Shown here: one piece after another, positions 1,374-64,000 of the stretch
Layout of the letters: every line of letters begins with the position of its first letter
Position numbering within the stretch: position 1 is the stretch's first letter
DNA from: Pelagophyceae sp. CCMP2097
Taxonomy: Eukaryota; Sar; Pelagophyceae
NCBI GenBank assembly: GCA_026770575.1
Contig: MU657186.1
Coordinates: 204,030 to 268,029, forward strand
Reading direction: 5' to 3'
DNA length: 64,000 nt
Program-made: the position numbers and the translations under genes
Notes under the pieces: model-generated
Seen by the model: only the letters and a program-made list of their open reading frames with translations
Told to the model about the DNA's origin: nothing
Databases searched by the model: none

Positions 1374-2462
1374 TTGCAGGTTCGAGGCGCGAAGAGCGAC
1401 CTCGACGCGATGGACGCCCCGCCGGCCGCCGTCCTTCCAAAGCCCTGCTGCGTCTGCGACGCGCCGGGCGGCAAGCACTGCACCAAGTGCAAATCGCGGC
1501 ACTACTGCTCCAAGGCGTGCCAGCTCGTTGACTGGAACGAGGGCGGGCACAAGGCGCAGTGCAAGCAGCTCGTCGCCGACTTTCAGGACCGCCTCCTCGA
1601 CTTGCTGATGCCGCTGAAGGTGAAGATCATGGAGGAGCCGCCAATTGTCGAGGACGTCGCGCCGGCAGCTGGTTTAAAGGCTGCGCCGCGCTTATCGGGT
1701 GCTCGGACCGACAAGGTGGCCAAGGCCGGCGCGCCAAACGACGACACACATAGCTGGCGCGGCACCTGCGCCGTCTGCCTGGACCAGCTTCCTGTCGGAA
1801 GCGGAACGCAGAGGTTCTACTCGTGCTGCTGCAAGAAGATTTGTTTAGCATGCGCCGACAAGTGCGAGGAGTACGACGAGCGATGCCCGCTCTGCCGCGC
1901 GCCGGGCCCAAAGTCGGATGCCGAGACGCTGCGCTGGCTGCAGGAGCACGCGGACGAGGGGAATGCCGATGCGCAGGTGCTGGTCGGCAACGCGTACGGC
2001 CATGGTGAAGGTCTCAAGAAGAGCAGCACGAAGCGGGCGTTGAAGTTATTCAAGCTCGCGGCGGCGCAAGGAAATGCGATGGCTCAGGTGAAACTGGGAT
2101 TGTGTCATGTGCTTGGCGAAGGCGTCGAGATCAACCTCAAGACGGCCGAGCAGTGGTACCGACGCGCAGCCGAGCAAGGCTATCCGGATGGACAATACCT
2201 CCTCGGCACCGTGTTCTGCGGAGGCGAAGGCGTGGCGCAGTCGTTTGACGAAGCCGTGCGGTGGTACCGCCTCGGCGCGGCGCAGGACCACGCGGCAGCG
2301 CTCTACTGCCTCGGCAACTGTTATGCAGACGGCAAAGGCGTGCCAGAGGATCTCGACGAGGCGCTGCGCCTCCACAAGCGCGCCACGGCGCAGGGGCACG
2401 CCTGGGCTGCGGAAATGGCAGCAGAGGTCTCGCAGCGCCTCGCGGCGCGCGCCTCTGGGTGA
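1374..2462 (+). CDS. MYND zinc finger / RING-like / Sel1-repeat protein
   Basis: The product is up to 362 residues. An internal Met at 1410 (MDAPPAAV) is an equally good start. Residues about 25-65 form a MYND finger with the expected spaced Cys/His (CCVCDAPGG, CTKCKSRHYCSKACQ, HKAQCKQL). Residues about 132-180 carry a second Cys-rich RING-like module (CAVCLDQL, CPLCRAPG). From about 195 to 350 there are four Sel1/TPR-like repeats with the usual A..LG..Y..G.GV pattern. MYND fingers bind proline-rich partners and Sel1 repeats are scaffolds, so a protein-interaction or ubiquitin-ligase adaptor role is likely but inferred. It appears to be a single exon. Its substrate is unknown. Confidence 0.88.
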   Translation: MQVRGAKSDLDAMDAPPAAVLPKPCCVCDAPGGKHCTKCKSRHYCSKACQLVDWNEGGHKAQCKQLVADFQDRLLDLLMPLKVKIMEEPPIVEDVAPAAGLKAAPRLSGARTDKVAKAGAPNDDTHSWRGTCAVCLDQLPVGSGTQRFYSCCCKKICLACADKCEEYDERCPLCRAPGPKSDAETLRWLQEHADEGNADAQVLVGNAYGHGEGLKKSSTKRALKLFKLAAAQGNAMAQVKLGLCHVLGEGVEINLKTAEQWYRRAAEQGYPDGQYLLGTVFCGGEGVAQSFDEAVRWYRLGAAQDHAAALYCLGNCYADGKGVPEDLDEALRLHKRATAQGHAWAAEMAAEVSQRLAARASG

Positions 2463-62055: not shown

Positions 62056-63282
62056 ATGGAAGCTTCGTCACCGGCGGCGGCGGTGGCGGCGCCGGCGGCG
62101 ATCGCGTGCGGCGGCGAGCACACGCTCGCGCTTCGCCCCGACGGCGCCGCGTTCTCGTCGGGCGCGTGCGGCCTCGGGTGGAATCGGCTGCAGGCCGTCT
62201 TCCCGGGTCTGCTGAGCTGGCGCCGCGCGCCTATCCCCGAACCCGTGGCGGCCGTCGTCGGCGGGTCTTACCACTCCCTCGCATTAACAAAAACGGGCAA
62301 GCTCTTCGCCTGGGGCTGCGGCACGTTTACCGACGGCCGCCTCGACGGCGCCATCCCGGCGCTCGGTCAGCGCTCCCGCGCCACGGAGACGCTCGACCCG
62401 GCGTTGGTCGACGTCGGCGGCGCTTGCGTCGTAGAGGCCGCCGCGGGCGCGTACCACTCCGTGGCGCGCACGGCCGACGGCCGCGTCTTCACGTTTGGCG
62501 CGGCGCAGCTCGGGCAGCTCGGGCGGCCAGTTGGAGCGCAGGTCGACGGCGCGGGCCTGCCCGTCTCGGCGGATCCCGGCGAGGCCGCTTTGACTGCGGG
62601 CGACTTGGCCGTCAAGGTTGGGGCCGCGTTTTACAACACGTTTGCCATCTGCAAATCCGGCGTCGTGCTCTGCGCCGTTGGCCGCGGCGTCCAACCCTAC
62701 CCCGGCGACGTATACGCCCAACAACACTCGACGCGTGTCCGGAGCATTGAATCGTAGGGCGAGAACCAGTACGGCCAGTGCGGTGCCGGCATGGCGAACC
62801 TCGCACTGCTGACGCGCGTCAACGAGCTAAAGGGCCACGACGTCACCGCGGTCACCGGAGGCTACTGCCACACGCTCGCTCTCACGCGCGCCGGCTTCGT
62901 CGTCACGCTCGGCTGCGGCGACGACGGCCAGCGCGGCGCTTCGACGGACGCTACTTCGAACGTCGTCCGCTTGCCGAACCGCAAAGCCGTTTCCATCGCG
63001 GCGGGCGCCAACCACTCTTTGGCTTTGGCCGACGACGGGAGCGTCTGGGGTTTTGGGAGCAACGAGTACGGCCAACTTGGGGGCGGCGACGACGAGCCAG
63101 TCTTTTCGCCGCGGCGAGTCCCGTTGGCGCAAAAGTGCGTCGCCGTCTCTGCCGGTTACGCGCACTCCGTCCTCTCGCTTGCAGACGGTAGCGCAGTCGC
63201 TTTGGGCCGCGGCGAGAACGGACAGCTCGCAAACGGCACCGACAAAGACCGCGTCCAAGCGACGCCCTGCGATAAGCTATAA
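62056..63282 (+). CDS. RCC1-repeat (beta-propeller) protein (two exons)
   Basis: Exons are 62056-62688 and 62758-63282, with a 69-nt intron (GTCCAA...TCGTAG) in phase 0. The product is 385 residues. RCC1-type blades are visible: IACGGEHTLALRPDGAAFSS, VVGGSYHSLALTKTGKLFAW, AAAGAYHSVARTADGRVFTF, then after the junction GENQYGQCGAGM, VTGGYCHTLALTRAGFVVTL, IAAGANHSLALADDGSVWGF and SNEYGQLGGGDD, and a last GRGENGQLANGT. RCC1-like propellers act as GEFs or scaffolds; no Ran-specific feature is claimed. It is divergent from the TPR gene with only 94 bp between starts. Confidence 0.9.
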
Positions 63283-63473: not shown

Positions 63474-64000
63474 ATGGGGCTTCTTCGGGGAGCGGTGGTC
63501 GCATTAGCGGTGTCTGCGGCGTCTGCCTTGACGACGCCGTACCAGCGCCTGAAAGGCGTCTCGTTGAACCGCGCCACGACTGGTTCGCCCGTCGAGCTGA
63601 CGTCTCTCTGGCGCCCAGACTTTGTCGGTCTCGGCGGCGAGCGCGTCGTCGTCGAATTCCTCCGGCATTATGGCTGAGTCTTCTGCTGGGAGCGCGCCGT
63701 GCAATTGAAGCGCGACGTGCTCCCGGCACTCCAGAAGAAAGGCGCCAAGCTTTTCATCGTCGGCATCGGGTCCGTCGAATCCGCCCAGACGTTTTCCGAG
63801 CGCACGGGTTTCCCCGCGGAAATGATGCTCGTCGACTCGTCCGACGAGTGCGAGGCCTACGGCGCCGCCGGCACGCGCAATTCGGAGTTCGAAAACGGCA
63901 AGCAAAAGTTTGAAGGCATTGGCTCTATGTGGAGCAAGGCCACCAACACCGCTCTAGACGCGCGCGGCAAGGAAGACCTCAACGCCATCTTGAAGCTCTA
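63474..64000 (+). CDS. Selenoprotein U / Prx-like2 family thioredoxin-fold selenoprotein, 5' part (runs off the right edge)
   Basis: The start at 63474 gives a signal-peptide-like MGLLRGAVVALAVSAASALT, so it may enter the secretory system or plastid. It continues VVVEFLRHYG, then an in-frame UGA (63675-63677), then VFCWERAVQLKRDVLPALQK without another stop to the window end (over 100 codons). The motif around the UGA, RHYG-U-VFC, is a UxxC redox site. The flanking KLFIVGIGSVESAQTFSERT and DSSDECEAYGAAG match Prx-like2/FAM213/SelU (AhpC/TSA fold), where this position is Sec or Cys. No splice site near the UGA removes it. The SECIS should lie beyond the window. Expected role: thiol/peroxide redox. 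Confidence 0.85.
63675..63677 (+). other. In-frame UGA, predicted selenocysteine codon (Sec68)
   Basis: The codons read CAT TAT GGC TGA GTC TTC TGC TGG. Reading frame, composition and homology pattern continue unchanged on both sides. A GT donor is not present just before the UGA, so intron removal is unlikely. Confidence 0.82.

Follow-up and report, generated by a model that had tools for sequence, protein, structure and literature searches.

Of 36 algal genomes, more than half are recorded as having Sec-containing members of the SELENOU family, according to passages of a survey that also credits Aureococcus anophagefferens with 82 selenoprotein genes (PMC7539508), and Sec forms of SelU3 are reported from invertebrates in part of another account (PMC3473315). 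The human form of the SelU3/PRXL2B/FAM213B type, prostamide/PGF synthase (PDB 9us9), carries Cys. The literature that we searched, to which the main paper on selenium in Aureococcus (Gobler 2013) does not belong, contained no paper on the selenoproteins of Pelagomonas calceolata. As regards Pelagophyceae sp. CCMP2097, selenite is the only item concerning selenium that is named in excerpts of its genome paper (PMC9756366).

Here, we describe a nuclear gene of this pelagophyte that lies at the right-hand end of a 64,000-nucleotide stretch of its DNA (contig C23, positions 204030-268029; hereafter, the window). With a probability of about 0.92, judged from sequence, we consider its product to be a SelU/PRXL2 protein (Prx-like2, PF13911) that contains Sec. 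The UGA at codon 68 is most likely read as selenocysteine, because the frame is open on both sides of it, the predicted product is homologous to the family, the UxxC motif stands in register with the catalytic site, a SECIS-like hairpin follows the gene, and SepSecS and eEFSec are encoded in the genome. Predicted Sec is the feature that the protein would share with the SELENOU proteins of other algae (PMC7539508, in part) and that would set it apart from the human Cys form. The kind of system is well known, and the gene is a sound new member of its family and no new type of system. With it, the Sec-using algae gain a pelagophyte for which the gene, a SECIS-like hairpin, and some of the decoding factors are known.

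The UGA-containing frame and its protein family

An earlier note on the window had described an open reading frame from 63474 with one UGA at 63675 that stays open beyond it, and each of these elements was found. Beginning with the ATG at 63474-63476, 67 codons precede a single in-frame TGA; the frame is then open through the end of the window and closes on the extended contig (L004, C23:267000-272000, where a position equals the window position minus 62970) at a TAG at C23:268178-268180 (L004 1179-1181). The full-length protein is 225 residues long; the UGA corresponds to residue 68. The features of the locus are as follows.

63474..64000, forward strand: 5' part of the predicted SelU/PRXL2-type selenoprotein coding sequence, continuing beyond the window; PF13911 match
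63474..63530, forward strand: putative N-terminal presequence, hydrophobic, residues 1-19, MGLLRGAVVALAVSAASAL; read by eye
63675..63677, forward strand: in-frame TGA, codon 68, first position of UxxC; aligned with the first Cys of CxxC in PDB 9us9
63684..63686, forward strand: TGC, Cys71, resolving position of the UxxC motif; from sequence and alignment
C23:268212-268287, forward strand, outside the window: SECIS-like hairpin with AUGA at C23:268227; from pattern, scan, and fold

GC content at codon positions 1, 2, and 3 is 0.69, 0.52, and 0.75 before the UGA and 0.59, 0.41, and 0.85 after it, the values for comparison in the 5' flank being 0.62, 0.53, and 0.54. By its sequence, the predicted SelU/PRXL2 frame with its UGA is beyond a chance open frame. 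The presequence, read by eye and a difference from the SelU3/PRXL2B/FAM213B type, would be a signal peptide or a plastid bipartite signal and might lead the protein into the secretory route or a complex plastid.

The Pfam family PF13911 (AhpC-TSA_2) matches residues 78-208, directly C-terminal of the motif, with 52.2 bits against a cut-off of 27. Among solved structures, human prostamide/PGF synthase is closest in sequence (E 1.6e-4); its GCVVC aligns with G-U-VFC, placing the UxxC motif in register with the catalytic CxxC of the SelU/PRXL2 family. The assertion that the UGA occupies the SelU-family catalytic position within RHYG-U-VFC is thus upheld: alignment with SelU and FAM213 proteins, a check that the note itself had named, pairs the UGA with the first Cys of CxxC in 9us9, which is of SelU3/PRXL2B type. 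An AlphaFold2 model of the part inside the window (175 residues, 36 sequences; mean pLDDT 67.2, pTM 0.63) has the motif immediately preceding a helix at 72-88, with residues 65-68 below pLDDT 50. Foldseek ranked the three chains of 9us9/9usa at the top (E 7.5e-5 to 2.8e-4); TM-scores on this truncated model reach a modest 0.45-0.58. The protein appears nearest to the SelU3/PRXL2B type, an assignment drawn from motif, best hit, and fold resemblance. A third PF13911-like stretch, on C14 (L006, ~1449-1664, forward strand), falls short of the cut-off of 27, with 25 bits, and shows by eye no clear UxxC or CxxC.

On the established model of eukaryotic Sec decoding, the SECIS would recruit SBP2 and eEFSec with Sec-tRNA so that UGA 68 is decoded. 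By analogy with PRXL2 enzymes, the resulting selenolate would attack a peroxide or disulfide-type substrate, Cys71 would resolve the intermediate, and a thiol system would then recycle the enzyme.

SECIS-like elements and other UGA-interrupted redox genes

Besides the window gene, the assembly searched (66.18 Mb, 638 contigs) holds four further UGA-interrupted redox genes, with the UGA at catalytic redox positions in the five.

L005 (C74), ~2071-1382, reverse strand: second SelU-type gene, SelU1-like (RRPG-UGA-intron-RMC); PF13911
L023 (C13), 2364-1456, reverse strand: SelT-like, Rdx family, LCTS-UGA-GMQ; 49.6 bits versus 22.6
L039 (C16), 2018-1593, reverse strand: Prx5-like, PGAFTPT-UGA-HTAHVPGY, UGA at the peroxidatic position; Redoxin 85.5 bits
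L007 (C16), 2763-1626, reverse strand: peroxiredoxin, TGG-UGA-T in one stretch and the C-terminal part in another; AhpC-TSA

The SelU1-like gene on C74 resembles the window gene in its PF13911 match, in a UGA at the same motif position, and in a SECIS-like hairpin, located 47 nt past its stop. It differs in its own motif, RRPG-U-RMC, and in a 75-nt frame-keeping intron that, on our own reading, begins one base after the Sec codon. The shared UGA position and the hairpin of this sibling lend support to the Sec reading of the window gene. The C74 protein also has 9us9 as its first match, with a better E (1e-12). A green-algal relative (P0148) has Cys at the Sec position (RRPGCLLC), and a database entry, M885DRAFT_526044 (155 residues), is identical over 76% of the C74 protein. 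The SelT-like gene carries, 141 nt past its stop, an element whose cores are those of the window gene's element, and we take the second TGA in its stretch to be intronic. In the Prx5-like gene, the element (C16:206803-206847) lies 44 nt past the stop. The TGG-U peroxiredoxin scores 18.6 and 26.0 bits with AhpC-TSA in its two stretches, the cut-off being 26.

The hairpin of the window gene, AUGAC-GCCAUGCGCCC-AUCCCAAAGA-GGGCGCCCGGC-CGAC, stands 46 nt past the stop. Left to fold freely, its 76 nt form two helices, I and II, and an internal loop that contains AUGA and CGA (z -2.96; 1 of 200 shuffles as good). A rule-based scan, with rules drawn up once the candidate was already known by eye, was first run on the window and L004, together with five further loci, L039 excluded. 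In background sequence of 383,696 strand bases, a figure that includes overlapping loci, it returned 11 such sites, some of them duplicates, and in 2 Mb of simulated sequence 18; from these rates, the chance of a SECIS-like site within the first 100 nt past a stop is ~0.001-0.003. The scan picked up the elements of the window, C74, and SelT-like genes but not that of the TGG-U peroxiredoxin (L007); on L005, it reported one site more. Its helix I rule adds nothing, since all 11 background sites also pass it.

A pattern made from the window and SelT-like elements matched 14 places genome-wide versus 6 for a reversed control. Frames were read behind one of the 12 further matches; given the origin of the pattern, the Prx5-like gene found through it is the only new one. 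The window, SelT-like, and Prx5-like elements together show pairing in 87.9% of cells and two-sided changes in 4 of 11 pairs, compared with 34-42% and 0-2 pairs when partners were slid, a score that is favoured by a structure drawn from the same three sequences. Individually, the SelT-like element (z -1.63) and the Prx5-like element (z -1.83, its free fold pairing part of the AUGA core) are weak. By eye, MAFFT misplaced the 3' cores in two of four SECIS elements. Within the window, SelT-like, and Prx5-like set, two elements have UCCCAAA in their loop.

Canonical SECIS elements carry AA right after helix II. The window element agrees with the Rfam family RF00031 (SECIS_1) in its AUGA/NGA cores, helix I, helix II of 11 positions, and apical loop, whereas its loop, AUCCCAAAGA, is without AA directly after helix II. 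The Rfam SECIS families gave no match to the hairpin at E up to 10. Over the whole genome, RF00031 yielded two weak matches, of 28.3 and 21.3 bits, both below its cut-off of 35, the better of them 64 nt past the stop of the TGG-U peroxiredoxin. The search for a SECIS that the earlier note had proposed came out in its favour by structure, rarity, and covariation, within a 3' UTR of predicted extent; the Rfam models do not recognize the element. As SECIS_1 gave nothing above cut-off genome-wide, surveys that lean on it may miss elements of this kind.

Database relatives and alternatives to a Sec codon

We examined 139 relatives, consisting of 103 from a first search and 36 new ones among the best 120 of 127 from a second, which scored the 7998 candidates with the most shared words and whose length filter favours fragments of such size. 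Many are near-identical variants from short contigs; they were compared as proteins, so that a UGA shared among them is presumed. Named sources include Octactis speculum and Pelagomonas calceolata, and scans confirmed no relatives on viral or prokaryotic contigs. Among the matches listed, 135 of 139 stop short of residue 68 at their N-terminal side, with projected starts on residue 69 for 49 and on residue 76 for 47 (first letters M in 80, V in 15, and L in 1), and none of the 139 has Cys at residue 68. Gene predictors therefore apparently cut off this SelU3-like clade at the UGA. The warning that ordinary annotation would truncate the protein to 67 residues accords with the codon count before the UGA. 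The annotation failure is concrete and checkable: the active-site half is absent from these 135 entries, and the database entry for the C74 protein begins two residues past its Sec.

Position 68 is covered in four listed relatives: P0003 and P0106 have W, P0005 has S, and P0097 shows a gap. The full-length P0003, P0005, and P0106 align across the UGA position, and for P0003 and P0005 the alignment is seen to be gap-free at this site. The W may be a TGA read under code 4, and the Ser of P0005 counts against the Sec reading. P0097, from Aureococcus anophagefferens and named prostaglandin-F synthase, is without the motif block kept by the other full-length relatives; its gene model was probably made to avoid the stop.

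We propose tentatively, and at slightly under even odds, that pelagophytes and dictyochophytes share a Sec-only SelU3-like clade cut off at the UGA in public databases, together with a pelagophyte SECIS subtype (AUGACGCC ... GGCCGAC) missed by the Rfam SECIS models. If this is true, marine stramenopile selenoproteomes are undercounted. The clade may already be listed in the Aureococcus selenoproteome paper (Gobler 2013).

Three other explanations of the UGA were considered, and all were rejected on the conserved block, the relatives, the hairpin, the sibling genes, and the decoding machinery. A gene of the Cys type could have acquired the TGA by nonsense mutation or through faulty assembly, making this copy a pseudogene or artefact, and the gene was indeed read in one assembly alone; this is very improbable against the consistent cut-off of the listed relatives past position 68 with no Cys among them, an intact and codon-structured remaining frame, the SECIS-like hairpin downstream, and the same UGA in the C74 sibling. 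An equally slim chance attaches to a short intron that spans the UGA and is spliced out, leaving Sec unneeded. Short introns do occur in this genome, as in the C74 gene, 153 in-frame GT-AG pairs with lengths of 30-400 nt enclose the UGA, and the Aureococcus model P0097 skips the motif block; however, with any such intron the protein would lose a portion of the conserved VEFLRHYG-x-VFCWERA, which is uninterrupted in P0003 and P0005.

Decoding machinery

The genome encodes SepSecS (three matches on C174; PDB E 2.3e-49) and eEFSec (C143; PF21131, 102 bits; PDB E 1.8e-20), both of which are specific to the Sec pathway. A tRNA-Sec was not found in the 66 Mb searched with RF01852, three patterns, ARAGORN, and a script, and neither was SPS, for which TIGR00476 gave no candidates. 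The working Sec system that the earlier note took to be implied is thus borne out for the first pair of components and not for the second. The one tRNA-Sec candidate in the later search, on L039, paired poorly, and a frequent match in the tRNA-Sec search is presumably a tRNA-Ala(TGC). The sole PF00586 match was rejected as SPS, being a formyltransferase-AIRS fusion of the purine-pathway type. Both absences are weak negatives, because few candidates were scored (53 of 5768 with RF01852, and 30 of 99 matches checked in the later tRNA-Sec search) and because 66.2 Mb were searched, compared with 85.8 Mb, at 89.1% BUSCO coverage, given for the published assembly in part of its description (PMC9756366).

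The least probable alternative, that the UGA is read as tryptophan or passed by general readthrough with no selenium involved, could draw on the W of P0003 and P0106 and on the missing tRNA-Sec, but gene finders write W for TGA under code 4, the UGAs fall at catalytic redox positions in five genes, and the two Sec-specific factors are present. Decoding of UGA 68 as selenocysteine is the reading that we retain.

Elsewhere in the window, an RCC1-like repeat gene recognized by eye (62056-63282, forward strand) contains an in-frame TAG at 62755-62757, which would be accounted for by a GT-TAG intron of 48 nt at 62710-62757.
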